Shown here in pieces: positions 51,496-64,000 of a stretch of DNA of 64,000 bases (positions are counted from its first letter, which is position 1; every line of letters starts with the position of its first letter). Origin of the DNA: Bradyrhizobium sp. LMTR 3 (GTDB lineage Bacteria > Pseudomonadota > Alphaproteobacteria > Rhizobiales > Xanthobacteraceae); assembly GCF_001693485.1 (NCBI RefSeq), contig NZ_MAXC01000033.1:248001-312000 (forward strand), written 5' to 3'. Made by a program: the position numbers and the translations under genes. The notes beneath the pieces are model-generated. The model ran no database searches, was not told the origin of the DNA, and was given only the letters and a program-made list of their open reading frames with translations.

Positions 51496-51541
51496 GGGCG
51501 GCTAGCTCAGCTGGTTAGAGCATCTCGTTTACACCGGGATG
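51496..51541 (+). pseudogene. 5' half of a tRNA-Val(TAC) gene, split by insertion (attachment-site end)
   Basis: GGGCGGC-TA-GCTC-AGCTGGTTA-GAGC-A-TCTCG-TTTACAC-CGGGA is a correct acceptor 5' strand, D arm and anticodon arm (anticodon TAC). The T arm and 3' acceptor strand are missing: after about 51542 the sequence no longer fits a tRNA. The break right after the anticodon stem is where many tyrosine recombinases cut. Confidence 0.75.
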
Positions 51542-51551
51542 ACGCCAATGC

Positions 51552-51580
51552 GCAAAGGCTTGAAGTGCATGGCCTTTTTG
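51552..51580 (+). terminator. Possible intrinsic terminator after the tRNA fragment
   Basis: AAAGGC and GCCTTT flank a 12-nt loop, followed by TTTTTGC. It would stop transcription from the broken tRNA gene. Confidence 0.35.
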
Positions 51581-51629
51581 CATCGGTACTGCTGAGCGCA
51601 ACAGAAACCGCAACAGATACGGCGGCGTG

Positions 51630-51704
51630 GGGCGGTTAGCTCAGCGGTAGAGCACTGGTTTTACACACCATTGGTCGGGAGTTCGATCCTCTCACCGCCC
51701 ACCA
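51630..51704 (+). tRNA. tRNA-Val (anticodon TAC), carried by the element
   Basis: A complete 75-base tRNA with CCA encoded: acceptor GGGCGGT/ACCGCCC, D stem GCTC/GAGC, anticodon loop TTTACAC (TAC), T stem GGGAG/CTCTC with loop TTCGATC. The top pair of the anticodon stem is a C-T mismatch. Its D loop and anticodon stem differ from the host fragment 130 bp upstream, so it is not a simple duplicate. Confidence 0.92.
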
Positions 51705-51752
51705 CCGTTTTTCCGAAGATGTGGCCTTATGGCGGGGCGGGAGGCGCATTCG

Positions 51753-52007
51753 ATGCCAGTATTCGTTGCTAAGGTCACTGAGGAGAGCGGTGATCTATTG
51801 CTGCCTGTGACGGTGAGTGCACAAGACGCTCAAACAGCCGAGAAACTGGTTCGCGATTTGCCACATGTTGACGCGACGGCAAAGGTTGAGGTGCGCGAGT
51901 TGCAGGGCAATCTGAAGAAGGTTTTCGGCGCTCAGGCGGAGGGCACGGCTGTTGTTCGCATCGATTGGACTTGGCGAGGTGATCAGCCTGAGAAGAACCC
52001 GTTCTGA
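51753..52007 (+). CDS. Hypothetical small protein at element border
   Basis: An 84-residue protein (MPVFVAKVTEES to PEKNPF) with GGGAGG eight bases before the ATG, a good ribosome site. Alternating strand/helix pattern (LLLPVTVSAQDAQTAEKLVRDL) suggests a small alpha/beta fold. No family recognised. It is the only plus-strand gene at this end of the element, just after the tRNA, and is convergent with the DUF4238 gene. Confidence 0.6.
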   Translation: MPVFVAKVTEESGDLLLPVTVSAQDAQTAEKLVRDLPHVDATAKVEVRELQGNLKKVFGAQAEGTAVVRIDWTWRGDQPEKNPF

Positions 52008-52117
52008 GGATGAAGGCATCACACACCATCTGATGATCCGCATCCTCGTGCCCAGCACGTTCCCGCGCTGTGTGCGTCCCTTTGACCGCATCGCCGGGAC
52101 CGCTCCCGTGCCCGTGT

Positions 52118-53071
52118 TTATTTTTTTAGGAACTGCGCGTCCTTTACAAGTGACGCACCCAGCCGTGGCTTTCGATCATCGAGCGTATACAGGAAGTTGG
52201 TGTCTGCGGCGTAGACCTGCCGGTCCGCATAGGCGACCATCGCGCCGTTCAAGCGAGCAACGCCACTCGCATCGAGGACAATCGTATCTTCTTTGATTTC
52301 AAAAGCACCGACAACAGCCATGCGCCTACTGATGGGAAAGATGACTTCCGTGCCGGGCAGCCCGTGACCGGGGCCGTGAAAGCCGCCGCGCCTTTTGGGA
52401 TCGGAGAACATCAAGCAGACAGGATGATCGCAGGTAATGAAGCCGCCAGTTTCCTTTGGAGCCAGCAACACCACCCACTTCCTATCAAGCAACGTTCTCA
52501 AGACGGCATCGAGCGAATGCAACTCAAGTTGAATGTGCCGCTCTGTGGACACCTCCAGCCGAAATGCCTTTTCCACAACAAAGCGGCGCAATTCTTCATA
52601 GGGCACATCGTGCTCGGGGACATAACCTGACGCCTTCATTCGTCGCATCTGGCCCTCCCATCGCTCTTTAGTGCTTGTCGCCAAGTCCATGATGATTTCC
52701 GCCGTGCGCTCGTGAAAGCCACGAATGTTTTCGCGGCGTCGCGGGTTTCTGATTGCTGTTATCCCGATCAGGTTCATCAGGAGCAAGCGGTCATCATCGT
52801 TGTTGAGCGAGCGGCTTTCCAATATGCGGAGTAGTGCCGGACCAAGTTCGCCTTCAAACTTCGCGTACCCTTGCTCGATTGCGTCCGGCGGATGGCCTTC
52901 GACATCTATGCGATTGAAGTCCTTTTCGGTCGCAACATTGATGATGTTGGCGGTGAACGCCTTACCGTCACGATCGGCAACGTAGACGTGATGCGAAGCG
53001 CCGCGTCCACGGGGTTTACCGAAGTGCTTCAGGTAGCATCGCGGCAGGTAATGATGTCGTCTGGCAACCAT
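52118..53071 (-). CDS. DUF4238 family protein
   Basis: A 317-residue protein that starts ARRHHYLPRCYLKHF, the hallmark of DUF4238, and continues with TNLIGITAIRNPRRRENIR-type helices and VVLLAPKETGGFITCDHPVCLMF, then PISRRMAVVGAF. The family is of unknown function, mostly found scattered in accessory regions and mobile elements. The N-terminal HHxxPxxxL motif may bind metal. It is the last gene of the minus-strand run, next to the insertion border, a usual place for cargo such as defence or fitness genes. It overlaps the preceding small gene by 43 bp. Confidence 0.8.
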   Translation of the reverse strand: MVARRHHYLPRCYLKHFGKPRGRGASHHVYVADRDGKAFTANIINVATEKDFNRIDVEGHPPDAIEQGYAKFEGELGPALLRILESRSLNNDDDRLLLMNLIGITAIRNPRRRENIRGFHERTAEIIMDLATSTKERWEGQMRRMKASGYVPEHDVPYEELRRFVVEKAFRLEVSTERHIQLELHSLDAVLRTLLDRKWVVLLAPKETGGFITCDHPVCLMFSDPKRRGGFHGPGHGLPGTEVIFPISRRMAVVGAFEIKEDTIVLDASGVARLNGAMVAYADRQVYAADTNFLYTLDDRKPRLGASLVKDAQFLKK

Positions 53072-53202
53072 AGATTATCATGACATATGGCGGTTGAGGT
53101 CTCCAGCGCCATCAGACAGTAAGTTGTTGGCCGCCGCGCCCACCGGCGGCCGGGCAGAAAGGCAGTGATCAAGAGCAGAGCTACAATCGCGGCAGATTTC
53201 AC
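53029..53202 (-). CDS. Small exported or membrane protein
   Basis: A 57-residue frame with a GTG start at 53202 overlapping the upstream stop (GTGA) and GGAGGAGG eight bases before it. VKSAAIVALLLITAFLPG is a signal or membrane segment, followed by a short Cys-containing tail (YCLMALETSTAICHDN). No family recognised. Confidence 0.55.
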   Translation of the reverse strand: MKSAAIVALLLITAFLPGRRWARRPTTYCLMALETSTAICHDNLWLPDDIITCRDAT

Positions 53203-53387
53203 TTGCGATCCTCCTCCGGCCTGAAGCCCTTCGGCAGTCGCGGCGGTTCGTCCGGTGTCGACCGATTGCATCGCGGGCAGGGCGCGCCAGCAGCGCCACA
53301 AGCGCAGGCGTGCGGGCCTTCCCATGGCTGGTCGGGATGGACCTCGCAGACCCAGCCCGTGTCGTCGCAGAGCGGGCACGTCATCAT
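53199..53387 (-). CDS. Small Zn-ribbon-type protein
   Basis: A 62-residue protein with two CxxC pairs and extra cysteines (CPLCDDTGWVCEVH and CACGAAGAPCPRC), likely binding zinc in a DnaJ-like or rubredoxin-like ribbon. It overlaps both neighbours by 4 bp (ATGA upstream, GTGA downstream), so it is part of a coupled phage-type operon. Role unknown. Confidence 0.7.
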   Translation of the reverse strand: MMTCPLCDDTGWVCEVHPDQPWEGPHACACGAAGAPCPRCNRSTPDEPPRLPKGFRPEEDRK

Positions 53388-53581
53388 TGTTTGGGCTTCG
53401 GATGCGCCTGATCGTAAACGGCCGTCACGATGAACGCCGCGCTTGTCATCTCGCGACGCTGCTCGGTTCCGCAGTGGGGGCATTCAATGATCTCTAATTC
53501 CTTGCCGCCGGGGACACCGCCACCAATCGCTGTTACGGTGAACTGGCCTTGGCAGCGCGGGTCTTTGCAGGTCTCAGCCAT
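53384..53581 (-). CDS. Small Cys-motif hypothetical protein
   Basis: A 65-residue protein with paired cysteines (CKDPRCQGQ and CPHCGTEQ) separated by about 30 residues, a likely zinc ribbon. Its stop overlaps the next start (ATGA). Probably an element-encoded accessory protein; no function is assigned. Confidence 0.65.
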   Translation of the reverse strand: MAETCKDPRCQGQFTVTAIGGGVPGGKELEIIECPHCGTEQRREMTSAAFIVTAVYDQAHPKPKQ

Positions 53582-53619
53582 CGGTCTCCACCCCCTTGGG
53601 TTTTATATTTTCGTTGTCT

Positions 53620-53886
53620 TTAAGCGAACAGGTCCGCACCGGACTGCGTGAACTTCACGAACGTCCCGCTCTCGTGCAGTTCGAGCCAGCCGCGCTCGAT
53701 CGCGAAGGCGAGCCCGGCGGAATACTCTGCCGGAGTGCTTTTGTCTCCGAACAGGAACGGGCCGTTGAGAATCTCGATATAGATGCGGCCATCCTGCACC
53801 ACCTCGAAGGCGTGCGCGTGCTGCATCAGTCGGCGCGCGGCCTTCTCGGGATCAGCGAAGGGCCGGTCGGCGGCGGTGTACTTCAT
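53620..53886 (-). CDS. Hypothetical element protein
   Basis: An 88-residue protein (MKYTAADRPFADPEKAARRL to QSGADLFA) with a helix followed by strands (GRIYIEILNGPFLF, RGWLELHESGTFVKF). It looks like a small winged-helix or alpha/beta protein. Start overlaps the upstream stop by ATGA. No family recognised. Confidence 0.65.
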   Translation of the reverse strand: MKYTAADRPFADPEKAARRLMQHAHAFEVVQDGRIYIEILNGPFLFGDKSTPAEYSAGLAFAIERGWLELHESGTFVKFTQSGADLFA

Positions 53887-54245
53887 CGCAGCGGCACCTT
53901 CTCGCCGCGATCCATCAGCGCGTACTTCCGTGCCGTCCAGTCGCGTTGGTCACGCCACTCTTCAAAGTCGGCCTGTGTGCGTTTGGCTGCGAAGGCCAGC
54001 CATGCCTTTTCGAACCTAGCCTTAGCCTCTTCGAAGGTCTCGGCGCAGCCTGTCCTGATCTCACCAGCGTGAGAGCCGGGGTAGAAGCCAGCGGACCAAT
54101 TCCAGTTGTTGACCGCGTTGGGCATGCCGACGGCCTTAGCAATAGTGCCTGCGTGGATGTCGCCGCAATAAATGAACCAACAGTCGGGGCGGTCGGGGTC
54201 GCGGCGGCGGGTCAGCTTTGTGAAATCTAGCGTCACGACCGGCAT
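53883..54245 (-). CDS. Hypothetical protein of Bradyrhizobium accessory regions
   Basis: A 120-residue protein rich in aromatic residues: VTLDFTKLTRRRDPDRPDCWFIYCGDIHAGTIA, then WNWSAGFYPGSHAGEIRTG and EEWRDQRDWTARKYALMDRGE. This pattern recurs in hypothetical proteins of this bacterial group as I recall it, but no function is known. It is coupled to the next gene by ATGA. Confidence 0.65.
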   Translation of the reverse strand: MPVVTLDFTKLTRRRDPDRPDCWFIYCGDIHAGTIAKAVGMPNAVNNWNWSAGFYPGSHAGEIRTGCAETFEEAKARFEKAWLAFAAKRTQADFEEWRDQRDWTARKYALMDRGEKVPLR

Positions 54246-54292
54246 TTAAGCGCTTCAGCTTGCCTGTGAATACTGGATCATCCTGTGTTCGG

Positions 54293-54532
54293 TCAACGCC
54301 GCGAGCTAAGTTTCTTGGCCACTCGTGCGGCGATATCGTCTGGGTCTGGCAGCACACCGAGTACAGCCCTGCACCGAGGGCAGTGGGCGATGTAACCAGA
54401 TACAAGTGGCCCAGAAAAGCTATTGCCGAGCTGGCCTGCTTGCAGGTCAACATTCGACATGGTCTGCTCGCAGCTCGGGCATTTCACCGAGATCATCTTG
54501 AGTCCCTCTGGCCTAACGACGCGCGTCGTCAA
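54293..54532 (-). CDS. Small Zn-finger-like protein downstream of the antitoxin-like gene
   Basis: A 79-residue protein with CPSCEQTMS and CPRCRAVLG, two CxxC pairs 30 residues apart, matching a zinc ribbon. Its start at 54532 overlaps the HTH gene stop (ATGA); an internal ATG at 54496 just before the first CxxC is an alternative. It probably belongs to the same operon as the toxin-antitoxin-like pair. Confidence 0.6.
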   Translation of the reverse strand: MTTRVVRPEGLKMISVKCPSCEQTMSNVDLQAGQLGNSFSGPLVSGYIAHCPRCRAVLGVLPDPDDIAARVAKKLSSRR

Positions 54533-55005
54533 GCCTGCATCTGATCGAGCTGAGGTGCGTTTAACGGCTTCCAGCTGCTGTTGTTCTTCTTGAAGCAGGT
54601 GGTGCCATTCTCGATCCGATCGAGATCGGCGAGACGTTCAAGCATCTTGCGGATGTGAACGTCTCCGCCGGCGAATTCGGAGTAGAGCGCGCGCAGGAGC
54701 CGATCGGCCGTGCCTGGGATGTGCTTGCCTCGGCTCTTTTCCCATAGCCGAAGGGTTTGCTCGGTCGCGCCGATGATGCCGGCGAGGTCCCTTTGCGTCA
54801 GCTCCATCTCGGTCCGGAGAAAGCGTAGCTCGGCGCCGTCGAGGGGGATCGGGCGCGTGATCAGGTGCTTGCCAATGGCCTTGTGGAGGCCGGCTGTGTT
54901 CTGGATCGACACGCCTTCGCCGTACGGCGTCTTGTGAATTGTGAAGCCGTCTACGAGATAGATGTTGTCGAGGCCGCTTTCCGTGTAGTGATAGCTCTTT
55001 GACAT
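54529..55005 (-). CDS. HTH-type antitoxin/transcriptional regulator (MqsA/HigA-like)
   Basis: A 158-residue protein whose middle (about 52-105) is an XRE-type helix-turn-helix: ELRFLRTEMELTQRDLAGIIGATEQTLRLWEKSRG. The N-terminal 45 residues (YHYTESGLDNIYLVDGFTIH) resemble the partner-binding part of MqsA-like antitoxins. It follows the DUF4258 gene by 12 bp, giving the toxin-first order seen in HigBA and MqsRA. It probably binds the palindrome at 55422-55440 and represses its own operon. Confidence 0.8.
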   Translation of the reverse strand: MSKSYHYTESGLDNIYLVDGFTIHKTPYGEGVSIQNTAGLHKAIGKHLITRPIPLDGAELRFLRTEMELTQRDLAGIIGATEQTLRLWEKSRGKHIPGTADRLLRALYSEFAGGDVHIRKMLERLADLDRIENGTTCFKKNNSSWKPLNAPQLDQMQA

Positions 55006-55017
55006 GGACTGCTCCTC

Positions 55018-55419
55018 TCAGAAGGTGGTGACGACGATCAATCGCGCTGGCCAGTCAATCGCGACGACGCAGGTGATTTGTTCACCGGCGGTAAACCGTG
55101 ACAGATTGACTTGCCAATTTCCCTTCGCGTTGATGAAGGGTCCTTCTGTAATACTTCCTTTCTGGATGCACCGCTCGATCTGAGGGCGCGTGATATTTCG
55201 TTGTGCTCTTCGTTTCTGTGCATGCTTGATGACGACGATGTTATTGCTGTCGGCAGCAAGCATGTGGATAAGCTTGAGGGCATCCGCCTCGTTGAGGCGG
55301 TCCGGCTGTTCAGCGGGCGGAAACGCCCGCCGTATCGGGACAACCTCGGCCGAATGGCGTGCCTTATGCTCGGCCACACGCTTCGGTGGTCGCTTTGGCT
55401 TATCGTCCGGTTCATTCAT
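55018..55419 (-). CDS. DUF4258 family protein, probable toxin of a type II toxin-antitoxin pair
   Basis: A 133-residue protein. The C-terminal 70 residues match DUF4258: VVIKHAQKRRAQRNITRPQIERCIQKG, GNWQVNLSRFTAGEQITCVVAID, LIVVTTF. DUF4258 belongs to the RelE/BrnT-like RNase-fold group often paired with HTH antitoxins. The N-terminal 60 residues are charged and disordered (DDKPKRPPKRVAEHKARH). The ATG at 55419 lies at the expected transcription start of the promoter 55427-55454, so the mRNA is probably leaderless. A longer open frame to 55500 runs through the promoter and is not preferred. Confidence 0.75.
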   Translation of the reverse strand: MNEPDDKPKRPPKRVAEHKARHSAEVVPIRRAFPPAEQPDRLNEADALKLIHMLAADSNNIVVIKHAQKRRAQRNITRPQIERCIQKGSITEGPFINAKGNWQVNLSRFTAGEQITCVVAIDWPARLIVVTTF

Positions 55420-55421
55420 GG

Positions 55422-55454
55422 ACCTATAAATATTATAGGTTACGGTCCTGTCAA
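55422..55454 (-). promoter_or_regulatory. Promoter and operator of the toxin-antitoxin-like operon
   Basis: On the minus strand TTGACA (55454-55449) is followed after 16 bp by TATTTA (55432-55427). ACCTATAA-ATA-TTATAGGT (55422-55440), a perfect 8-bp inverted repeat, overlaps the -10. The calculated start falls at about 55420, next to the ATG. This layout fits autorepression. Confidence 0.7.
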
Positions 55455-55635
55455 CACCTGCTTTTGCCAATGGTTCCTGGGCGTGATGAATTCGCGGCAA
55501 TGTGACCGATCCGCGACGGTAATTGGGCGTCCGACGCCGAAAATGGCTTGCCGTGCAAGGGGTTTGTTAACCTTGGCCGCGCGCGCGGGCTCCGGCGCTT
55601 TCACAGCCAGCGAAGGCAGGCGGCTCGACCCGGCT

Positions 55636-57687
55636 CTATTGCGCGCCCCCATCAAGCCCGGTCTCGGTCATCTGGCGGTAACGCTGGATCGATGTTTTCT
55701 GGAAGAAGCCGTCGCTTTTCGCGTCCACCTTGGTGCCGCTTGGCGCGTGCACCGATACGTTGACCGAGCCCTCGGCCTTCACCGCCCCGGCGCTTGTGCC
55801 GATCGCGCCATCGATGCGGCTGCGGCTGATGTCGGCGTCGACGTTGGCCCCGATCCGCCGCCGCTCCTCGTTGATCCGAGCCTGCATCGCTTCCCGGAAG
55901 CGTCGGGCTCCCGCATGGCCGCCAGGGCCGCCGCCCCAATCGTTATAGATGTTGGTGTCGCCACGGAACTCCTTGCGCCCGCCCATGTACCAGCCGTTCG
56001 GATCGCTCCTCATGCCCTGATCGGTTGCGCCTTCAAGTTCGTTGCTCGTGAATGCCTGATCGATGGCGCGGTTCATCTGGCCGGCAAGTGCCGGGTTGCG
56101 CCGTAGCCGTTCGATGTGCGCCGGCAATTCACCGCGCCGGATTGGACCGTAGAAGCGGCCTGTCATCATGTCAGCAAGCGGCTTGTTGGCATAGTCGGCG
56201 CGGTTGAACAGGCTTTCGACGACGCGGCGCGGGTTCCTGGCACCCTCGCTATGTGCAATCGCCGCCAGCTTCTCTCGCAATGCCGGGTTCGCTTCCAGCT
56301 CTTGCTTGAACCTGGCTCTACGCTCGGCGAGATATGCCGAGCCCGTGCTGTCCGATGTCACTGATCCAGCGCGGTTGGTGTCGAACGGCGACCTGCCGCC
56401 GCCATCGAGGCTCGGGACGGCACCGCCCAGCCCATTGCGGCCGGTGCCGAACATGCTGCGGTTGCCACCGCCCATTTCGGGGATCACAGAATAGCCGCCG
56501 CCACCGAAACCACCGAAACCACCGAACCCGCCGCCGCGTGCCGCACCGCTGCTACCGCCAAAGCTTGCATTGATCATGCCGCCGGTATTGCCGCCACTGA
56601 GCCCGCGCTCAAATTGGAAGTTCGCCTTCCTAAGATTGTCGGCGAACTTACCGAGTTCATCGTCTGTCTGACGAAACGACTGCGGTATCGCCCGGCCTCC
56701 TGTGCGCGGGTTGCCGGGGTTCAACAGCCGATCCCAAAAATCACCAGATGATCCACCAGCAGGCGGTTTGTAGCCACCGCGCGGTGACTGGTTTTCGCTC
56801 GGCCCGAACATATTTCTCAACTTCTCAAAGCCGCTGATCGTCTTTTCAATGGCGGTGTTGATCGCTTCCAGGCCGCGCGTGAATGTCGGAAACATTCCCG
56901 ACAGCGCCTTGGTCTTGATGTCGTCGAGGGTGTTGCCGAGCTTTTCCCATTGCAGCCGGAATTTCTCGCTCGCCTCGATTTGATCTTTCGCAAGTGTCCC
57001 GCTCTTGGCTATTTCGGCGTTCGCTTTCTCAAGGTCCTGCCATGTCAGGCGAGCGGCGGCGGCGGTGCCGAACATGCTGTCAGCAAATCGCTTCGCTACC
57101 GCAGGGTTCTTCCGCTGCAACTCCTGCATACGCTGGAACGCAATCCGCAGCGCGTCGGTGGTGCTGCCGGCGCGAGCAATTGCCTCAACCACATCGCCAG
57201 CGCCGGGATTGTGCAGTTCGTCACGAAGCCCGCCGATGCGCAGTTTGAAATCTTCGGCGTTCTTCGCGAAGGTTTGTAATGCGGCAAGTGATTGGCTAGG
57301 GTCGATGCGAACGCCCTCGAACGCCCTCTGAAACGCCTTCAACTGCTGCGTGGTGAAGCCGAGCGAGTTCGCGGCAAACTTCATGTCGGCGTTGACCCTG
57401 GAAAAATCGCGCAACGCGGTCATGGTTTTGCCGGCCGCCGCAGCGAACACGCCTGCCGCAAGCCCGGCACCGGCGAGGCCGAACCGAAATTGCGATAGCG
57501 CCTCAACACCGCCGGTCAATCCGGTTCGCAGATTGCGCAGCGGGTTGACCATGCCGGTCAGTTCGCGGCGGGTGCGGGAAGTGTCGACGCCTTTCCCGAG
57601 TTCGGAAAGCTTGCCCCTGATCTGCGACAGCGTGCGCGACACGTCATCTTCGAGCGTCGCTCGCATCCTCAAGACATCGTCAGCCAT
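55636..57687 (-). CDS. Phage tail tape-measure-like protein
   Basis: A 683-residue protein. The first 300 residues are helical and phage tape-measure-like: LSQIRGKLSELGKG, a hydrophobic FGLAGAGLAAGVFAAAAG segment, then ALQTFAKNAEDFKLRIGGLRDE and MQELQRKNPAVAKRF. A Gly-rich linker (about 375-405) leads to a region around 450-560 (AIAHSEGARNPRRVVESLFNRA) that resembles peptidoglycan-hydrolase domains found inside some tape measures. The ATG at 57687 is chosen; an upstream TTG at 57723 is less likely. An ACTGTCTTT box and a GATAAT -10-like string lie just upstream, so it probably has its own promoter. It is the largest gene of the element. Confidence 0.75.
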   Translation of the reverse strand: MADDVLRMRATLEDDVSRTLSQIRGKLSELGKGVDTSRTRRELTGMVNPLRNLRTGLTGGVEALSQFRFGLAGAGLAAGVFAAAAGKTMTALRDFSRVNADMKFAANSLGFTTQQLKAFQRAFEGVRIDPSQSLAALQTFAKNAEDFKLRIGGLRDELHNPGAGDVVEAIARAGSTTDALRIAFQRMQELQRKNPAVAKRFADSMFGTAAAARLTWQDLEKANAEIAKSGTLAKDQIEASEKFRLQWEKLGNTLDDIKTKALSGMFPTFTRGLEAINTAIEKTISGFEKLRNMFGPSENQSPRGGYKPPAGGSSGDFWDRLLNPGNPRTGGRAIPQSFRQTDDELGKFADNLRKANFQFERGLSGGNTGGMINASFGGSSGAARGGGFGGFGGFGGGGYSVIPEMGGGNRSMFGTGRNGLGGAVPSLDGGGRSPFDTNRAGSVTSDSTGSAYLAERRARFKQELEANPALREKLAAIAHSEGARNPRRVVESLFNRADYANKPLADMMTGRFYGPIRRGELPAHIERLRRNPALAGQMNRAIDQAFTSNELEGATDQGMRSDPNGWYMGGRKEFRGDTNIYNDWGGGPGGHAGARRFREAMQARINEERRRIGANVDADISRSRIDGAIGTSAGAVKAEGSVNVSVHAPSGTKVDAKSDGFFQKTSIQRYRQMTETGLDGGAQ

Positions 57688-57699
57688 TTCCATCACCCC

Positions 57700-57722
57700 G
57701 TTGATTATCAAAGACAGTATCA
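57700..57722 (-). promoter_or_regulatory. ACTGTCTTT box and -10-like sequence before the tape-measure gene
   Basis: On the minus strand ATACTGTCTTTGATAATC: the nonamer ACTGTCTTT is followed by GATAAT. The same nonamer, or one with a single change, occurs twice in the divergent control region at 63.84-63.92 kb. Confidence 0.5.
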
Positions 57723-57741
57723 AATTCGGCGCGTCGCCGCT

Positions 57742-58110
57742 TTACGGAATTGCCACGGAAACACCATTGACGGCCCAGCCCTGACCGATCGCGCAAGCTG
57801 CCGGCTCCAGCATCGGCGCACGCGCCAGCAAACTGGTTGTGCTGCATGCCGCCCACCACGACGCGGTGCCGTCAGCGGTGAAGGTGCCGAGCGCGGTGAG
57901 GGACGTAACCTTTCGACCGCTCGGCGATCCTGCGGACGGCGGCCCGAACAGCGTTGGACCTGCCGGGTTCGTCGCAACGCCCATCTTGTAGGTTGATGAT
58001 GCCTCCGCGAATGTCGTCGGCTCGGCGTTGCACAGAAACATCTGGCTTGCCTGACTTGAAAGAACACCCAGCCCACCGTCCAGAACCTCATCCCCAATAA
58101 CGCCCGGCAT
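57742..58110 (-). CDS. Phage structural-type protein, copy A2
   Basis: A 122-residue protein (MPGVIGDEVLDGGLGVL...) related to the gene at 58557-58931: both have DxxLxVL at the start, an ICxxEPxxYxxAxxTYxxG-type segment (here LCNAEPTTFAEASSTYKMG), a GRKVTSL strand and the block GTASWWAAC. The all-beta pattern suggests a tail-tube or decoration-type protein. It is the gene immediately upstream of the tape-measure-like gene. Confidence 0.65.
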   Translation of the reverse strand: MPGVIGDEVLDGGLGVLSSQASQMFLCNAEPTTFAEASSTYKMGVATNPAGPTLFGPPSAGSPSGRKVTSLTALGTFTADGTASWWAACSTTSLLARAPMLEPAACAIGQGWAVNGVSVAIP

Positions 58111-58170
58111 CGCTTCCTCTCCTTGCCCAAACCACCAAAGCTCAAAAACCCGATGATGCGGATCATGCGG

Positions 58171-58521
58171 TCAGTGTAATCCGCGTTCGTGTGTCCATCG
58201 AACCATCGCGCGGAACTCGTCCAGCAACGCGTCCCTAGTGAGATTGAGCGGCGCGCCACCGAGCAGCGCGACGTCAAGCCGCTCCCGAAACCTCGCGACA
58301 ACTGCGCCGTCCCACGCGGCGTCAAAAACAGCAAGGTGGGCCAGCACGCCGTCCTCGACCTGATCCAAAACATCAACGGCCCTCCGCAACATGCGACGCT
58401 GTTCGTCAGCATGTGTGTCGTCAGGATCGATGCTTATTTCCGCGATGGCATCGCCGAGCCGGGCGCGCAAATCGCAGGTGGCGTCCCAAAGCGGTGCAAG
58501 ATCGGCGATTTCGTGTTTCAT
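58171..58521 (-). CDS. Small helical element protein, copy B2
   Basis: A 116-residue helical protein (MKHEIADLAPLWDATCD to WTHERGLH). Its pattern (LGDAIAEISI, a hinge with several Asp, a long helix, FRERLDVALLGGAPLNL, LLDEFRAMVR) parallels the gene at 59026-59406, so the two look like distant copies. It lies between the two A-type genes. The ATG at 58521 is preferred to a TTG at 58542. No function known. Confidence 0.6.
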   Translation of the reverse strand: MKHEIADLAPLWDATCDLRARLGDAIAEISIDPDDTHADEQRRMLRRAVDVLDQVEDGVLAHLAVFDAAWDGAVVARFRERLDVALLGGAPLNLTRDALLDEFRAMVRWTHERGLH

Positions 58522-58556
58522 CGGAAGCTCGCAAGGTGTCAATCATCGCATCGTCG

Positions 58557-58931
58557 TCATTCGGCCGGCAGACGGATATCGAACGATGCCAGCGTGAAGG
58601 TGTTCGTTACGGCGACAACTTGCGCGGCCGCCAGAGGGCCGTGTGCATGCAGCGATGCAGTGCCGCAGGCAGCCCACCATGACGCGGTGCCGGATGTGGT
58701 GATGGTGCCGTCGGTTATCGCGACCGAGCTAACCTTCCTGCCGTTCGGAGATGCGTCCGAAGGCGAGGAAAACACATTGCCAGCGCCCCAGCTTTTGACG
58801 CCGAGAACGTATGTAGTCGACGCCTGCGCGTAGTTTGCCGGCTCGCTTGAGCAAATGAAGATATGAGACGTGAGCGTGTCGAGAACCGACAGCCCATTGT
58901 CCGCGACAACATCCGAAATTCCCGCTGGCAT
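58557..58931 (-). CDS. Phage structural-type protein, copy A1
   Basis: A 124-residue protein (MPAGISDVVADNGLSVLDTL...) sharing with copy A2 the segments IFICSSEPANYAQASTTY, PNGRKVSSVAI and GTASWWAACGTASL. The shared cores and spacing show duplication of one ancestral gene, followed by divergence. All-beta pattern, likely virion- or tail-associated, but no exact family is recognised. Confidence 0.65.
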   Translation of the reverse strand: MPAGISDVVADNGLSVLDTLTSHIFICSSEPANYAQASTTYVLGVKSWGAGNVFSSPSDASPNGRKVSSVAITDGTITTSGTASWWAACGTASLHAHGPLAAAQVVAVTNTFTLASFDIRLPAE

Positions 58932-59025
58932 TTCACTGTCCCCCGGTCATCGTCATTAAAAGTTCGCAAGGTAGTTGGAGTCGGGCATCTCGTCTCCTGT
59001 CGACGTGGCTGCGATTTCCGCGTGA

Positions 59026-59406
59026 TCAGTTTACCCGCCGCTTGCGTACCGTGTCGAACAACGGCCGGTGCAGTTCGTCGAGGAATGTTGCAGCGTCCGG
59101 GTGATCTAGCGTCGGGCCGCCGCCGACCGCGCGCAGCCTGATCTTCAGCGCCATCATGATGATGCCGCCGGTCGCGCGATCCGCCGACGCCAGGTTGTAC
59201 AGCGTGACGTCCGGCACCTGACCCAGCGTGCCTGCGATCCTAGCGAGACCATCGCGCGCAGCGTCGGCGCAAGGGCTCGCCGGGCTGACCGCGATCGCGG
59301 CGGCGGCGATTGCGTCGCGCAGTTGATCCGCGAAGTCGTCGATGACGTTGATCATTTCCCTGATTTCGTCGTCACTCGGCTCGGGCTCATGCAGCATCGT
59401 CGACAT
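59026..59406 (-). CDS. Small helical element protein, copy B1
   Basis: A 126-residue helical protein. Residues match the B2 pattern: QLRDAIAAAAIAV, ADAARDGLARIAGTL, then ALKIRLRAVGGGPTLDHPDAATFLDEL. The ATG at 59406 overlaps the end of the terminase-like gene by 20 bp, which suggests translational coupling; a longer open frame to 59565 would lie entirely inside that gene. Role unknown. Confidence 0.6.
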   Translation of the reverse strand: MSTMLHEPEPSDDEIREMINVIDDFADQLRDAIAAAAIAVSPASPCADAARDGLARIAGTLGQVPDVTLYNLASADRATGGIIMMALKIRLRAVGGGPTLDHPDAATFLDELHRPLFDTVRKRRVN

Positions 59407-59941
59407 CGGCACCCTCCTGTGCGCGCAGTTCATCAGCCTTGCGCCCGGCAACGTCAGCAATCTCGTGCAAGCACTCGTGGATGACGCCCTCGATCCTCCT
59501 GCGCAAGAGAAGATCCGAACCCGCAGCCCGCGCGGGAAGTCCGGACAGACAGGTCCGCATGACACCGCACATTTCGTCTACAATGTTCAGGTGATCATCG
59601 AACTTGATCAACGAGCCCGTCTTCTCGCCGACCTTCAGCCGCAGCAATTCCGTTTTCGCCTTGGTGAACTCGACGTCGGCCGCCGACCGCGCCGACTGCG
59701 CCCGCTGCTCACGCAGGCGCTTGATGTAGCGGCTCCGGCATTCGTCGAGATCGAAGCCGCCGCCCGGCAGCGCCTTGATGACATCGGCGGTCACCAACTT
59801 GCCGATGTATTGCCTCGAGCACGACAGATGCGTCGCCAAGGTGGCAGCCGACACGCCCGGCTTGGGCCGACCGGCAGCAGCAGCCTCGCCCAGGCGACGA
59901 GCCTGCGATCCCCGGCGGCGTGGTGGTGATTTCCCCGTCAT
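59387..59941 (-). CDS. Terminase small subunit-like protein (Nu1 type)
   Basis: A 184-residue protein with an N-terminal DNA-binding HTH (VSAATLATHLSCSRQYIGKLV, then FDLDECRSRYIKRLREQ) followed by a helical region SAADVEFTKAKTELLRLKVGEKTGSLI, the layout of lambda Nu1-type DNA-packaging small subunits. It would recognise a pac or cos site and recruit a large terminase, but no large terminase gene is next to it or elsewhere in the visible element. In phage satellites a lone small terminase can redirect a helper phage's packaging motor; whether that happens here is inference. Confidence 0.75.
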   Translation of the reverse strand: MTGKSPPRRRGSQARRLGEAAAAGRPKPGVSAATLATHLSCSRQYIGKLVTADVIKALPGGGFDLDECRSRYIKRLREQRAQSARSAADVEFTKAKTELLRLKVGEKTGSLIKFDDHLNIVDEMCGVMRTCLSGLPARAAGSDLLLRRRIEGVIHECLHEIADVAGRKADELRAQEGADVDDAA

Positions 59942-60111
59942 GCTTGCCCCGGCAACCGCAACCTTGGTTTCTCGAAAATCAAATATCCTGAAGGCGGGCC
60001 GTCGCGCGTCCCCTGCTGGCTTTCCGAGCCCCAGAGGACCCGGAAGGGCTCAGCAGGGCCGTTGCCAGCCTCGCCCATGCGTTCCGCTGCCTCGGGTGTC
60101 GGCGGCGACAT
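59938..60111 (-). CDS. Possible small protein coupled to the terminase-like gene
   Basis: A 57-residue frame (MSPPTPEAAERMGEAG to RLPGQA) filling the 250-bp gap before the terminase-like gene; its stop overlaps the next ATG (ATGA). No ribosome site is strong and no family is recognised, so it may be a chance frame in GC-rich DNA. Confidence 0.35.
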   Translation of the reverse strand: MSPPTPEAAERMGEAGNGPAEPFRVLWGSESQQGTRDGPPSGYLIFEKPRLRLPGQA

Positions 60112-60191
60112 CCATCCTCGATTGCCGCATGGGCGGTGGCAGCGGCCTTGGCGCGGCCCTCTGGCGGCAACGGCCGGATAGGCTGCGGCCG

Positions 60192-61193
60192 TCACCATCG
60201 CTTCGCCCACGACTTTATCTCATATGGTACGTCCGGGGCGGGCGGCTTCGGCACCGCCTTCAATCCCAGTACGGCTTCGGCGGGCAGGCCGTCGCGAAAG
60301 GCGATCGGCGCGCCGGCATCGATCTGTTGCCATATCATGGCGCATTCGGTGCGGGCATTAGCCATGATGTCGTCGCTGATCTCGTCCTCACGACGTCGGC
60401 GATCGTCATCGGTCAGCGCGTTCGCGTCATCAGCTTCCGCTTCGATCTCGCGGTCCAGCGCGGCGACCAGCGCGTCCTGATGGACAAACGCAAACAGGCT
60501 CAGCAAATCAGGCTCGACCCACTGCGCTAGCGCGGCAGGGCTTTCCACGTTCGCAACTCTTGCGGAACGGCGCACGTCGGCAAACGTGATTTCGGAACCA
60601 TGCTCAACCAGCGCGCCGACGTGCGGCCGCCCGCGCTCCGCCAGTTGGGCAATCTGCGATCGCATCGCTTGCTTTGCCCATGCGGATGGTCGCGGTGCTG
60701 ACTGAACACGATGAAGGTCGCCTTGAAGCTCGCGGCCTCGGCGCTGCGCGCGCTTGGCGGCGTCCGTCAGCGTCTCGCCCTTCTTCATCTCAGGAACAAC
60801 TTCGACAACCTCGAAGTCATTGGCCCCGGTGCTGCCTATAACCCATCCCTCGCAGGCCTCAACGATCCGGTTAATCGCCTGCCAGGCTGCACCTCTCTCG
60901 TCGCGGATAACTTCTAGGCGCTGTGCTTCGGCGCTCGCCGATGCCGCGACATTCTTCAGTCGCATGACCTCGGGATCGCCAGTGTCCTCGGGCAGGCGGA
61001 ACACCGCGATCTGTCGCCGGATCGTCGCTTCAGCGTTTTGCTGGCGTTCCCTCTGCTGGTTCACGCGGTCCGACGCAGCCAGCACCGCAGCGTGCTTTTC
61101 GGCGCTCGCATCGCCAAGGCGGCGCAGGCGCGATGCCGCCACGTCAGGGAGAGCGATGTCGGCGGCGATGGGTTTGGCTAGTGTCGGATGCAC
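60192..61193 (-). CDS. Hypothetical coiled-coil-rich element protein
   Basis: A 333-residue protein with a GTG start at 61193 and AAAGGA eight bases upstream. It is highly charged and mostly helical, with coiled-coil-like stretches at about 35-125 (QQRERQQNAEATIRRQI; NVAASASAEAQRLEVIRDER) and an acidic Asp/Glu-rich segment near 265-285. No enzymatic motif is visible. It lies between the putative DNA-binding genes and the terminase-like gene, where a head-morphogenesis or replication factor could stand, but nothing in the sequence decides this. Confidence 0.65.
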   Translation of the reverse strand: MHPTLAKPIAADIALPDVAASRLRRLGDASAEKHAAVLAASDRVNQQRERQQNAEATIRRQIAVFRLPEDTGDPEVMRLKNVAASASAEAQRLEVIRDERGAAWQAINRIVEACEGWVIGSTGANDFEVVEVVPEMKKGETLTDAAKRAQRRGRELQGDLHRVQSAPRPSAWAKQAMRSQIAQLAERGRPHVGALVEHGSEITFADVRRSARVANVESPAALAQWVEPDLLSLFAFVHQDALVAALDREIEAEADDANALTDDDRRRREDEISDDIMANARTECAMIWQQIDAGAPIAFRDGLPAEAVLGLKAVPKPPAPDVPYEIKSWAKRW

Positions 61194-61223
61194 TGTGTTT
61201 TCCTTTCATCGAAGCGTGATCGA

Positions 61224-61607
61224 TCACAACGTGCCCGCGTCGGTGGCTAACGAATAGCGAGAAAGTGCGGCACGGGTTGTGCCGAGCGAAGGCACAGCGT
61301 CACGCGCCTTCAAAGCCTCGAAGCAATGTGCGGTGACCCGGCCAAGGTGGCGTGTCGGACAAGTCACTGCGGTCCGCTCGCGCCGCCAAGAACCGTTCGC
61401 ATACATGCTGACGACATCACGCACTTTTCGCGCTGCCTCACGCTGCGACAAGCCGGGGAAGTGCTGCGCAATGGCTCGCAGAGCTTCATCACGCCGGGCG
61501 ATGGCCGCCAAAAACTGCGGCGTCCTGATCCCGCGACCACGCGCCACCGGCGGTGCGTCGACCGCTTCAGCGCCGACGAGATCGACAGCGTGACGCAACT
61601 GTTTCAT
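61224..61607 (-). CDS. Putative small DNA-binding element protein
   Basis: A 127-residue protein whose centre (LRAIAQHFPGLSQREAARKVRDVV) looks like a helix-turn-helix with a recognition helix rich in Arg. It has LAAIARRDEALRAIAQH before and several Arg after. The ATG at 61607 overlaps the previous stop (ATGA). Function not known; perhaps a regulator or replication accessory. Confidence 0.6.
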   Translation of the reverse strand: MKQLRHAVDLVGAEAVDAPPVARGRGIRTPQFLAAIARRDEALRAIAQHFPGLSQREAARKVRDVVSMYANGSWRRERTAVTCPTRHLGRVTAHCFEALKARDAVPSLGTTRAALSRYSLATDAGTL

Positions 61608-62080
61608 GGCTTGTCGTTCCCGGCATCCCAAGCGCGCGTCGGGTACGTCGTCGGCCACGGCAACTTGGGCAGCGTGATCGGACGGTGTTGAAGCTGCTGA
61701 TGCTGTTCGTCATCAGCGGTCGGCCGGTCCTGCACGGGCTTTGGGTCAACACGCGCCGGGCTCGGCGGTCGCGGGGCACGGGACTTGACCGGCCGCCGGG
61801 CGGCTACCGCTAATTCCCGCGCCTCTGCTGCCGACGCAATCGAGCGCCATCGGTCCGAAAGCGTGAAAATCTGTGCACGGCGGACATCGACGAACCCGAG
61901 CGACGCGAGTTCGCGGGTCGATGAGGCGATGTGCGCCCTGTTGCACCCCGCCGCCTGAAGCGCGTCATACGATAGTGCCGCCGGTGCTCCATTGCGCGCC
62001 GCCGCGTCCACGGCAAGCGCAAGAATGTGCCGGCTCGTCTTGCCGAGGGTTGCGTAGGCGATTGATTGTTCACGTGTCAT
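61604..62080 (-). CDS. Winged-helix-like element protein
   Basis: A 158-residue protein. Residues 1-70 (TREQSIAYATLGKTSRHIL, SYDALQAAGCNRAHIASSTRELASLGFVDVRR) fit a winged helix-turn-helix with the turn GCNRAH and a wing. The second half is Pro/Arg-rich and probably disordered. AGGA precedes the ATG at 62080; an upstream ATG at 62146 overlaps the previous stop (ATGA) and is an alternative. Likely a replication or control protein of the element. Confidence 0.6.
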   Translation of the reverse strand: MTREQSIAYATLGKTSRHILALAVDAAARNGAPAALSYDALQAAGCNRAHIASSTRELASLGFVDVRRAQIFTLSDRWRSIASAAEARELAVAARRPVKSRAPRPPSPARVDPKPVQDRPTADDEQHQQLQHRPITLPKLPWPTTYPTRAWDAGNDKP

Positions 62081-62142
62081 GTGGTCGCTTCCTCGCTTGC
62101 CTGCGCTCGGCGGCCTCTCTGCGCTTGCGTTGCGCAGGCGCG

Positions 62143-63003
62143 TCATGCAACACGGGCAGTGCTTTCTTCGTCACCGGGAGACCGGTGATCGGGTTCTGGG
62201 TACCGTGTTGATGCGGAATACCCCTTGGAAGGCCTCTTTCGGTGGTTCTGCGGTCTCGTGTCGCAAATGTTGTCCACAGTAAGAACCACAAGGTTACTGT
62301 GGACGCATTTTGCGACAGGGGGGCTAAGTCCTGCTGTAGCCGCCTTTTTCCGCCTCCGCTCCAAGGTCCGGCGGCAGATGCCCTCGGCCTCCCAAGGACG
62401 GCTCTGGCTCAGCGGCACGCGCTTCGGCTGGGCGGCGCGTTGGTCCCGCTTACGCTCACGATCCTTGCGCTTGCGCCGCTCCTCGGCCGTCTCGCCCGCG
62501 TTAAAGGCCCAGATGGTCTTGATCTTCAGTGCCGTGCGGACGTCATCCGTCAGGCCGATGGCGATGCCCAGCGCCGCCGCGTTGTATCTCCTCGGACGCG
62601 TGGCGGCCTGCTTTGCCATCGCCTCAGCCTTCGCTTCTGAGAGCCACGGTGCCCATACCTTCGCGAAATGGCAGCAGCGATTGATGACGTCGCTACCAGC
62701 CACAGCGAAGTGGTGAAACAGGATCATCAGATCGTCGCGCCCTGCGTCGTCGTCAGACAGGTGCCGGCCGTACTTCAATCTGAAGAAACGCTCCAACTCG
62801 CGGATACGCAGGTTGCCTTTCAGCCGGTAGGGTTGACCACCTTGCCTATCGAGTGCGGCGACGCGGTATTTGTGCGCGATGATGCGGCGACGGGTGGCGA
62901 CTGCCTGGGGCGATGGCCGGGGCCGGGCTTGCGTCTGCCGATCCGCTGGCGTATGTGTTCTAGGCATCATTATTCGATCCTCGTCGAATGGTGGTGCGTT
63001 CAT
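62143..63003 (-). CDS. Hypothetical DNA-binding-type protein, possible replication or control protein
   Basis: A 286-residue protein. Basic N-terminus, then LRIRELERFFRLKYGRHL and a helical middle (DDLMILFHHFAVAGSDVINRC), KDRERKRDQRA, and an HTH-like RPWEAEGICRRTLERRRKKA. Its size and place near the control end recall element-specific replication initiators, but no Rep, primase or helicase motif (no Walker A, no HUH) is visible. ATG at 63003 with GAGG upstream is preferred; ATG at 63018 is possible. Confidence 0.6.
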   Translation of the reverse strand: MNAPPFDEDRIMMPRTHTPADRQTQARPRPSPQAVATRRRIIAHKYRVAALDRQGGQPYRLKGNLRIRELERFFRLKYGRHLSDDDAGRDDLMILFHHFAVAGSDVINRCCHFAKVWAPWLSEAKAEAMAKQAATRPRRYNAAALGIAIGLTDDVRTALKIKTIWAFNAGETAEERRKRKDRERKRDQRAAQPKRVPLSQSRPWEAEGICRRTLERRRKKAATAGLSPPVAKCVHSNLVVLTVDNICDTRPQNHRKRPSKGYSASTRYPEPDHRSPGDEESTARVA

Positions 63004-63111
63004 GGTGATGTGCCTCATCGCTGAACGCTGTTTTCGTCCTGAACCCCAAGTGTTGCCGCCGCTCCGTAGCCCCGGAAGCGGCGGTATTTTTTCGGTGATG
63101 GTGTGAGGGCG

Positions 63112-63528
63112 TCATGGCGTGGCCTCGCGCGGTCCGAACGAACCACCGGGCACGAAGCGGCTCAAGACGCGCGCGGCGTGCCCTTCAATTTCAGCGAAGG
63201 GCAAATCGCGCCAACACGGCAAGCAGACCGCGGAGACCGTCGCCGCAGTCGGGCGGACGGCGCTGCACGAATATAGAAATGCTGCCGGTTGCAGCGCTGT
63301 CTCGAAGTCAGCCTCACAGCAGATGCAACTGAGCGCGCCAGCGCCCCGAACGAAGTCCCCCAGCGCTGCTTTGAAGATATTCGCGTGCGGATGTGTGTCG
63401 AGCGGCACACCGGCCGCGACCAACGCGGTGTCGAGCCCGTACGCGCTGCGGCGGCGGAAGCGGCTGACCTTGGCGGCCTCGTGTCGGCGGGCGTGGCGGT
63501 TTTCACGGATAGGCGGAATAGCGCGCAT
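63112..63528 (-). CDS. Hypothetical Cys-motif element protein
   Basis: A 138-residue protein with a basic N-terminus (RHARRHEAAKVSRFRRRSAY) and a Cys pattern typical of a zinc site: LSCICCEADFETAL in the middle and AVCLPCWRDLPFAEIEGHA near the end, spaced about 40 residues. The YSCSAVRPTAATV segment lies between. No family named. Part of the same minus-strand operon. Confidence 0.6.
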   Translation of the reverse strand: MRAIPPIRENRHARRHEAAKVSRFRRRSAYGLDTALVAAGVPLDTHPHANIFKAALGDFVRGAGALSCICCEADFETALQPAAFLYSCSAVRPTAATVSAVCLPCWRDLPFAEIEGHAARVLSRFVPGGSFGPREATP

Positions 63529-63599
63529 GATGCGCTCGCTCTCTCTTCAAATCTGCACCGCGCCAGTCCCGCCACCGGCGTGTTACTAGAGCTTTCTCG

Positions 63600-63806
63600 T
63601 TATCCTGCTGCGCTCTTGGCCTGCGTCGGCCTGCCTTCAGCGAGGATACGCCGCCACAGATCGCCGGGCACCCGCAGCTTTCGCCCGAACTTGGTGGTCG
63701 GGATTTGCCCGCGCTTGGCCGCCTCGTAGGACGCGGCGCGGCTGAGGTCGACCATGGCTCCTGCTTCTGGAACGGCATAGGTAAGCGGCAAGTCCTTGCG
63801 TTTCAT
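63600..63806 (-). CDS. Excisionase/AlpA-like HTH protein
   Basis: A 68-residue protein MKRKDLPLTYAVPEAGAMVDLSRAASYEAAKRGQIPTTKF-type: the order VPEAGAMVDLSRAASYEAAKRGQIP-TTKFGRKLRVP is the MerR/excisionase-type winged helix that decodes phage and satellite excision (Xis/AlpA). It reads as DNA-bending or regulatory protein, encoded by the first gene of the minus-strand run. A longer open frame upstream of 63806 runs through the promoter region and is not used. Its divergent partner begins at 63933. Confidence 0.7.
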   Translation of the reverse strand: MKRKDLPLTYAVPEAGAMVDLSRAASYEAAKRGQIPTTKFGRKLRVPGDLWRRILAEGRPTQAKSAAG

Positions 63807-63827
63807 GTGAAAACCCCGCGCTGAAAA

Positions 63828-63922
63828 GTTGTCTGACACTATGAAAGACAGTCTCACTGCGTCTTGATCGTGGCAATGGGATGGGATAGGTTCTGACTTA
63901 ATATTTGTAAGACAGTTTGAGG
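63828..63922. promoter_or_regulatory. Divergent control region with repeated TGTCT boxes
   Basis: Three related sites lie in the 126-bp gap between the excisionase-like gene and the plus-strand gene: TGTCTGACA (63830-63838), AGACAGTCT (63846-63854; minus-strand ACTGTCTTT overlaps it) and AAGACAGTTT (63909-63918; minus strand AAACTGTCTT). The first two are 9-bp palindromes around a central base. CATAGT lies where a -10 for the minus-strand gene could be. Confidence 0.5.
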
Positions 63923-63932
63923 CAGGCGGCGG

Positions 63933-64000
63933 ATGAGCAAGCGACGTGGGCCAGCCCCCAAGGGGGAGCATTACGGGAAGAGCGCAGTATTCAGCACGCG
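63933..64000 (+). CDS. Start of a divergent element gene (partial)
   Basis: ATG at 63933 with GGCGGCGG-type purine-rich leader opens MSKRRGPAPKGEHYGKSAVF, and the frame stays open to the window edge. Only 22 codons are seen. Basic start with RRGPAPKGEHYGK would fit a DNA-binding repressor or a small protein before an integrase, but nothing more can be said. Confidence 0.5.
   Translation, partial: MSKRRGPAPKGEHYGKSAVFST

Follow-up and report, generated by a model that had tools for sequence, protein, structure and literature searches.

An element inserted in a tRNA-Val gene

We analysed a stretch of 64,000 nucleotides from Bradyrhizobium sp. LMTR 3 (hereafter the window; bases 248001-312000 of the 570,792-base contig NZ_MAXC01000033.1), in which a small integrated element carries genes for a terminase small subunit (TerS) and for a tape-measure protein (TMP) of phage tails. 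The sequence past 64 kb was also fetched and searched. The element occupies positions 51522-64000 of the window and continues to 66202, for a total of 14,681 bp with a G+C content of 0.619. It splits a host tRNA-Val(TAC) at the anticodon loop: the 5' half of the tRNA (51496-51539, plus strand) ends with an 18-nt attL core (51522-51539), and the attR core, a direct repeat in the sequence with one mismatch, starts at 66203 in window coordinates (L003:2203), 2.2 kb outside the window, where it is joined to the 3' half. Joining the two flanks in silico reconstructs the empty site as an intact 77-nt tRNA-Val(tac). The gene adjoining attR encodes the integrase, a tyrosine recombinase (Pfam PF00589, 1.2e-7), and a candidate arm-type repeat for this enzyme lies near attL (51594-51617, plus strand), with a near-identical stretch near attR (L003:2102-2124). 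The element is thus small and integrative, with its own integrase and att sites, as is general among phage satellites.

A first-pass annotation of the window had called for a search for the right end, and had held that capsid, portal and large terminase genes just beyond 64 kb would contradict a satellite. The element closes at 66203 without them. Since both ends are located and no head gene was found between them, that objection falls away.

A complete tRNA-Val(TAC) borne by the element (51630-51704, plus strand; ARAGORN) apparently replaces the split host copy. Its sequence differs from that of the host copy, and it is retained in the circular form too. With the host tRNA as query, a match of at least 80 bases was obtained in each of the 12 other genomes of the genus searched, while the matches in the window genome were limited to the two halves, the copy on the element and two that are more distant. 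As no further intact tRNA-Val(TAC) was found in the window genome with this query, the host may rely on the satellite-borne tRNA.

TerS and TMP genes without other virion genes

The TerS gene (59387-59941, minus strand) encodes a Nu1-type protein of 184 residues, of which residues 29-176 match phrog_57, 'terminase small subunit' (E 9.3e-18). The TMP gene (55636-57687, minus strand) encodes a tape-measure-like tail protein of 683 residues that matches phrog_2013, 'lytic tail protein' (E 1.8e-7), and phrog_2276, 'tail length tape measure protein' (E 1.4e-4), and no Pfam profile. The protein is laid out as an N-terminal part, a Gly-rich linker and a C-terminal domain, each akin to phage TMPs or to the ends of TMPs. 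The TMP of a prophage in genome G429 aligns with residues 1-366 (32%) and 616-683 (43%), and a prophage TMP in genome G132 with residues 449-675 (40%); the TMPs of genomes G028 and G143 align as well. A search of solved structures gave a chance match only. Both genes have exactly the coordinates and the nature assigned to them in the first-pass annotation.

We scanned 20 of the 24 listed genes of the element with PHROG and Pfam profiles, four small genes being omitted, and found no large terminase (TerL), portal, capsid or head protease. A sheath, tube or baseplate set was not found either, in these scans or in a six-frame search. When 27 virion proteins from prophages and islands were compared with the element by six-frame tblastn, only TMP and TerS scored below E 0.01; the best other match, a 39-residue portal stretch, had an E of 0.096 and is no significant remnant. 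As a control, queries from the G143 and G028 prophages recovered TerL, portal, capsid and sheath in the prophages of G429 and G070. Profiles and translated searches therefore agree that TerS and TMP stand here without capsid, portal or large terminase, as had been claimed, and that the genes for an autonomous virion are lacking, as in satellites generally. The accompanying claim of tight junctions needs to be restricted: the overlaps around TerS are indeed short (20, 4 and 19 bp) and no gene remnants were found, but gaps of 94, 14, 60 and 54 bp separate the genes between TerS and TMP.

Relatives in the same genus

Upstream of TerS, the element encodes a protein of 333 residues (60192-61193, minus strand), detected in genomes with profiles A1 and A4 and common to the satellites described below; we refer to it as the hallmark protein. 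Among 146 genomes of the genus, including that of the window, the TMP search matched 11 and the TerS search 17, and the TMP profile matched 20 of 265 genomes; prophages or islands of other kinds account for many of these. Gene calls in the compared loci come from our own codon-score script, by which small genes may be missed or misplaced.

A second element of the same kind occurs in G028. Its TerS and hallmark protein are 38% and 32% identical to those of the window element, the identity of its TMP is 32% in the first 400 residues and 54% in a stretch of 54 residues at the C-terminus, and the 138-, 180-, 126-, 120- and 88-aa genes have homologues there as well. This element encodes in addition a baseplate hub between TerS and TMP (phrog_177, 5.6e-59; Pfam gp44/GpP domains), and its TMP carries a phage tail lysozyme domain (Phage_lysozyme2, PF18013, 3.4e-17). 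Its likely ends are a 19-nt repeat with one mismatch, 15,188 bp apart. A third element, in G481, holds the TMP, the hallmark protein, homologues of the 144-, 138- and 180-aa genes and a weak homologue of the 126-aa gene. The presence of the same TerS-TMP pair in relatives suggests that the pair is a kept design, not a broken virus.

Islands of other kinds also carry TMP-like genes. In G010, a 19.3 kb island with an integrase lies between perfect 57-nt tRNA-Tyr repeats (L020:229-19571); it encodes a 687-aa protein similar to phage TMPs, itself without PHROG or Pfam match, and an S78 prohead-protease-like fragment, and it gave no match to the hallmark protein, TerL, portal or capsid. A further type of TMP-bearing element is found beside tRNA-Thr in G114, G005 and G088 (L022, L023 and L024), with an integrase and a TMP-lysozyme-like protein of 1031-1067 residues (phrog_1259, 2.6e-106 in L023); no TerS or head genes were noticed in these three islands.

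A hallmark gene shared across the order

The hallmark profile matches 20 of 296 genomes of the family, and a wider profile matches 18 of 297 genomes of the order, from 10 of 122 genera; the window genome is included in both counts. The window hallmark protein has no match in 50,697 phage records and none in the helper-type prophage stretches that we fetched (see below), and the one match in IMG/VR is itself on an island with an integrase. Within these collections it is thus a gene unique to its class of element and absent from phages, as expected in phage-inducible chromosomal islands (PICIs). Its structure model is all-helical, with a long N-terminal hairpin, and coiled-coil-like, at a low confidence (pLDDT 54.9) unfit for fold search.

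We fetched 35 loci and scored the 34 in which the hallmark gene was detected at E 1e-4 (24 of 25 and 10 of 10; L090 was dropped), several of them truncated where the contig stops. TMP is present in at least 10 of the 34 (the window, G028, G481, L072, L075, L141, L164, L166, L167 and L172), TerS in nine (the window, G028, L043, L141, L164-L167 and L170), TerL in six (L073, L074, L076, L083, L088 and L171), capsid in three (L072, L075 and L081) and head protease in four (L072, L075, L077 and L141), with PHROG support for those loci that were profile-scanned. Portal and sheath were found in none of the 34 with two query sequences each, one sheath query being labelled by eye. Many loci showed none of these virion genes, and an integrase or a captured gene was not seen in every locus. 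TerS and TMP occur together in five firm loci (the window, G028, L164, L166 and L167) and in a doubtful one, L141, whose TerS-like gene matches phrog_57 at only 2.6e-6 over 54 residues. The window element and relatives of it fit the description of a proposed satellite superfamily: an island that bears an integrase and the hallmark gene and has captured a gene for packaging, capsid or tail.

A TerS, TerL, capsid or protease gene was recognised in 19 loci, and in all but one of them (L043) it is no more than about 1.1 kb from the hallmark gene. From this nearness, a role in head assembly or packaging is probable for the hallmark protein. A portal role, considered from the gene order, receives no support from the weak helical model.

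Two hallmark islands, L072 and L075, combine capsid, protease and TMP, and no portal or large terminase was found in them with the queries used. In L073, L074, L076, L083, L088 and L171, a large terminase lies near the hallmark gene and the queries used revealed no other virion gene.

Tail proteins encoded in the absence of a capsid might also belong to a tailocin-like or gene-transfer-agent-like particle system that is not a satellite. We regard this as barely credible: of a whole tail only the TMP, with the hub in G028, was found, no sheath, tube or baseplate set accompanies it, the two sheath queries gave no match in the 34 hallmark loci, and TerS, integrase and att sites would serve no use in a tailocin.

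Five related islands on one contig

G763, from another family of the same order, has five hallmark islands on a single 4.3 Mb contig. Four of them are bounded by candidate end repeats at a spacing of 14,407-14,888 bp; three of these lie at tRNA genes, and the fourth is short (24 nt, 88%). Three islands share the order hallmark, 124-aa gene, TerS, TMP, the TMP starting about 20 bp past TerS. One of them, L164, has profile matches for TMP (phrog_28, 1.2e-34) and TerS (phrog_57, 2.1e-23) and also encodes a primase-helicase. The dN/dS values of the three TMPs, calculated with our own Nei-Gojobori script, are 0.12, 0.15 and 0.13; those of TerS are 0.07-0.35 and those of the hallmark protein 0.19-0.44, while the primase (0.31-0.69) and integrase pairs give higher, partly saturated values. 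The island TMPs have 863-869 residues and are longer than the 706-aa TMP of a prophage on the same contig, which is 50% identical over 614 residues of the 869-aa island TMP; other genes of this prophage resemble those labelled sheath and hub by eye in a G028 prophage. The G763 TMP matches 124 phage records, at 27-30% over 35-39% of the TMP length among the matches listed.

The 124-aa gene between hallmark and TerS (L168:10812-11186) resembles head maturation proteases in their C-terminal part (phrog_53, phrog_17040) and is perhaps a scaffold piece.

The TMP is a variable module in G763: it is present in three of the five islands, and one other has a HicAB-like pair (named by eye) in its place. 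This would suit a TMP that serves mainly as a weapon against the helper, as a decoy that poisons or competes in helper tail assembly or as a block to superinfection. Satellite interference with tail assembly is known from PLE11, one of the phage-inducible chromosomal island-like elements (PLEs), where it acts through a different protein, Rta (PMC12987554). A decoy function nevertheless appears unlikely to us. The window TMP retains its N- and C-terminal parts; the position of the TMP directly after TerS in G763 and its pairing with a baseplate hub in G028 suit assembly better; and the TMPs of PLEs are incorporated in particles and needed for transfer (PMC12987554).

Relationship to helper-type prophages

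Full prophages of contractile-tailed phages in G143, G070 and G429 carry TerS and TMP related to those of the satellites, and the prophages of G143 and G070 also a related hub. We call them helper-type. About 10-13.5 kb of head and tail genes separate TerS and TMP in these prophages. That of G429 has a lambda gpA-type TerL, a lambda-type portal and a sheath supported by Pfam, which G143 and G070 match, and IMG/VR holds phages of the same gene order. A G028 prophage combines a helper-type head with a different tail. Genes outside the profile scans, such as those taken for sheath, tube and hub in the G763 and G028 C173 prophages, for tail chaperones and for HicAB, were labelled by eye or by similarity to genes so labelled; the gene called sheath in the G028 C173 prophage has no Pfam match. 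The G070 prophage contains two adjacent TMP genes, both related to satellite TMPs (L021:7105-11554).

In a tree of 10 TerS rows, those of the window, G028, G139 (twice), G122 and G124 stand apart from the three phage TerSs and that of G056 (96/94). By eye, the TerS genes of G139, G122 and G124 are not beside phage genes; G139 C23 is in a hallmark locus. TerS thus behaves as a satellite gene, since satellite and phage TerSs separate. The TMP tree (12 rows) is different: the G481 TMP pairs with the phage TMP of G143 (100/100) and not with the other satellite TMPs, and the window and G028 TMPs branch among phage TMPs without resolution. Read as a gene history, this topology would require at least two separate gains or exchanges with phages, in a direction that the tree does not show. 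The lengths of the TMPs vary too: 683 residues in the window element against 709-813 in eight helper-type TMPs, and 800, a phage length, in G481.

These relationships bear on whether the element might be a decaying prophage, in which TerS and TMP were left after the loss of the head and most tail genes. Full prophages do contain relatives of TerS, TMP and hub, with about 10-13.5 kb of virion genes separating the first two, and inspection by eye suggests that some of the lone TerS loci (G122, G124, G139) are remnants. Decay is nonetheless very unlikely to explain the window element, whose ends are intact and in which no remnants were found. A like arrangement recurs at 32-38% identity in G028 and three times on the G763 contig, where the TMPs have low dN/dS, and satellite backbone genes were not found in the helper-type prophage stretches fetched and read, with the exception of a cargo homologue next to the G143 prophage. 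This is not a deletion confined to one element.

Other genes of the element

The remaining genes recognised in the window lie on the minus strand. Between TMP and TerS, a 122-aa protein (57742-58110) and a 124-aa protein (58557-58931) are paralogues with 43% identity. The latter is possibly a tail-fibre-associated virion protein: its homologues (tblastn, 40-43%) sit, according to the annotation of two phage records, immediately before tailspike or tail-fibre genes in Octadecabacter Antarctic DB virus 2 and Roseobacter phage CRP-6. This position hints that the two paralogues could be further tail parts. A 123-aa satellite protein (58171-58542) belongs to the family of the 126-aa satellite protein (59026-59406; alignment A5, 33%). 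The gene of the 126-aa protein overlaps TerS by 20 bp, and its homologues lie directly after TerS in G139 and one gene further in G028.

Beyond the hallmark gene lie a 144-aa backbone gene (61224-61658; homologues in G028, G481 and G665), a 180-aa backbone gene (61604-62146; G028 and G481), a 291-aa gene (62143-63018; G028 and G010 islands), to which its place alone lends a possible replication role, and a 138-aa Cys-rich backbone gene (63112-63528; G028 and G481). An excisionase-like helix-turn-helix (HTH) protein follows (63600-63971; PF12728, E 0.0023, below the curated cut-off).

On the attL side lies a DUF4238 protein, a candidate anti-phage cargo (52118-53071; Pfam PF14022, 7e-38; PADLOC PDLC03000, 2e-50); the PADLOC models behind this match include known and candidate defence. 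Two cargo genes are common to the G028 element, one of 88 aa (53620-53886; 85% identical), with a homologue also beside a G028 prophage, and one of 120 aa (53883-54245; 56%), with a homologue beside the G143 prophage. An MqsA-like HTH regulator or antitoxin (54529-55005; phrog_5119 of unknown function, 9e-43; TIGR03830, 7.3e-6, below cut-off) precedes a DUF4258 protein (55018-55500; PF14076, 1.2e-10), its possible toxin partner. This pair (54529-55500) may form a toxin-antitoxin system.

A probable phage satellite that would build chimeric tails

The first-pass annotation had read the lone TerS as a mark of a phage satellite. This reading is strengthened by the size of the element (14.7 kb), its defined ends and integrase, a TerS that stands apart from phage TerSs, the backbone that it shares with other small elements, and a TMP with no structural cassette or other virion gene found. 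We consider it fairly probable that the element is a phage satellite that redirects the terminase of a helper and builds chimeric tails.

The element would depend on a contractile-tailed helper phage, whose induction or infection would lead to excision and replication of the element. The Nu1-type TerS would pair with the gpA-type large terminase of the helper and steer it to satellite DNA. The satellite TMP would then replace the helper TMP as the scaffold of tails on satellite heads, and the resulting chimeric tails might have an altered length, by analogy with PLEs, and would carry a different TMP C-terminal domain, peptidoglycan-acting or for membrane entry. Where the element also encodes a baseplate hub, as in G028, that of the helper would be exchanged along with the TMP. 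Since the TMP is shorter than helper-type TMPs in the window element, of phage length in G481 and longer than that of the resident prophage in G763, the effect on tail length would differ from case to case. With a TMP of its own, the satellite would no longer depend on the TMP variant of the helper or be exposed to defences directed at helper TMPs, and the range of cells entered may change. That the satellite TMP remodels the helper tail, as had been suggested, is plausible from the PLE analogy; that it retargets the tail, we infer.

Several observations weigh against this interpretation. The profile scores of the window TMP are modest, tblastn found no counterpart of the protein in the phage collection, and the structure predicted for it is unusable (pLDDT 34.6). 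In the window genome, searches with the helper-type gpA TerL and with the sheath gave no match, the second being a weak negative, so that a resident helper of that type was not detected. No cos- or pac-like sequence common to four helper-type phages and two satellites was detected by short BLAST or k-mer comparison: an identical stretch of 31 bases upstream of TerS is common to two of the phages but absent from the satellites, and the ten-base words shared (6 against 1.6 for shuffled satellites) look like GC-rich words, with none of 11 or 12 bases. No primase or Rep was recognised by Pfam and PHROGs in the genes scanned, where a remote one could escape, unlike in a G763 satellite. No TerS was recognised in G481 within the 19.9 kb that were read of a 30 kb contig. 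The TMP is not universal: at least 24 of the 34 hallmark loci lack a full TMP by the queries used, L081 holds only a short TMP-like stretch, perhaps through decay, and two of the five G763 islands have no TMP, one with TerS and one with neither. Finally, the dN/dS values come from three copies on one G763 contig, which may have exchanged DNA, and not from the window element.

A wider proposal, which we make tentatively and with less assurance, concerns the order as a whole. A satellite superfamily, recognised by one coiled-coil-like marker protein, may build chimeric virions by modular replacement, each island bringing one or a few parts (TerS, large terminase, capsid and protease, tape measure, or baseplate hub) and taking the rest from a helper. 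The tape measure would have been repeatedly exchanged with local helper phages and would switch tail assembly to the satellite. The five related islands of G763, three with and two without TMP, coexist in one genome with a prophage whose TMP is related, which would allow a direct comparison of satellites with and without a TMP of their own.

Comparison with known satellites

P4-like satellites are likewise small integrative elements that parasitise a contractile-tailed phage. To our knowledge, P4 encodes neither TMP nor TerS, in which it differs from the window element.

PICIs, including the Staphylococcus aureus pathogenicity islands (SaPIs), resemble the element in their size of about 15 kb, their own integrase and att site, and the presence of TerS in some members; TerS as a packaging redirector is part of PICI biology, and the TerS match of the window element (phrog_57, 9.3e-18) places it with that subset (PMC6092414). 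The same source defines PICIs by the lack of phage structural genes, whereas the window element has a TMP, and by a divergent regulator pair with a primase-rep module, which was not recognised in the genes scanned here (PMC6092414). Capsid-forming PICIs (cf-PICIs) encode a capsid, a portal and a terminase of their own; the searches of the window element revealed no capsid, no portal and, of the terminase, the small subunit only. Some cf-PICIs are shown with a putative tmp (PMC12987554), and the relatives L072 and L075 with capsid, protease and TMP look similar.

In Pseudomonas, AH14b (helper AH14a) is a 16.8 kb satellite-like prophage with one tail gene and otherwise without structural genes (PMC4936722). 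That gene encodes a tail assembly protein I like the helper's, said to be absent from the mature tail, and the accessible text mentions no satellite TMP (PMC4936722).

The main text of a 2023 mBio study of Bradyrhizobium phages contains neither 'satellite' nor 'tape measure' (PMC10127595). In the literature searched on tape-measure satellites, on alphaproteobacterial or Bradyrhizobium satellites and on surveys of satellites, satellite TMPs were described only in PMC12987554, a weak negative given the poor coverage of subscription papers and preprints; a review on ICP1 contains the words too (PMC9040626).

The closest likeness is to the PLEs of Vibrio cholerae (PLE1, PLE4 and PLE11), which encode a TMP and take the rest of the tail from a contractile-tailed phage (PMC12987554). 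According to that text, PLE11 virions contain the TMP and the hub BhuB of the PLE instead of those of ICP1, their tails are about 10 nm shorter, and deletion of tmp cuts transduction by about 99.9% (PLE11), 96% (PLE1) and 99% (PLE4); the legend of its Extended Data Fig. 10 shows putative TMPs in PLE-like elements and some cf-PICIs (PMC12987554). PLE11 also has its own hub and a tail assembly chaperone (PMC12987554), and the G028 relative has a hub-TMP pair. The window element differs in its Nu1-type TerS, in that no chaperone was recognised, and in its bacterium; the likeness is drawn from the description of PLEs and not from PLE sequence.

Satellites with their own TMP have thus been known as a kind since 2026 (PMC12987554). 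The first-pass opinion that a tape measure in a satellite would be unusual must be qualified to that extent, as PLEs have TMPs, PLE-like elements and some cf-PICIs have putative ones, and TMPs are present in at least 10 of the 34 hallmark loci. What appears to be new is the combination of TerS and TMP, its distribution in this order, and the hallmark gene. Chimeric tails were shown in 2026 for one family, the PLEs; here the idea recurs in several lineages of another order, together with a TerS borne by the satellite and with low dN/dS values.

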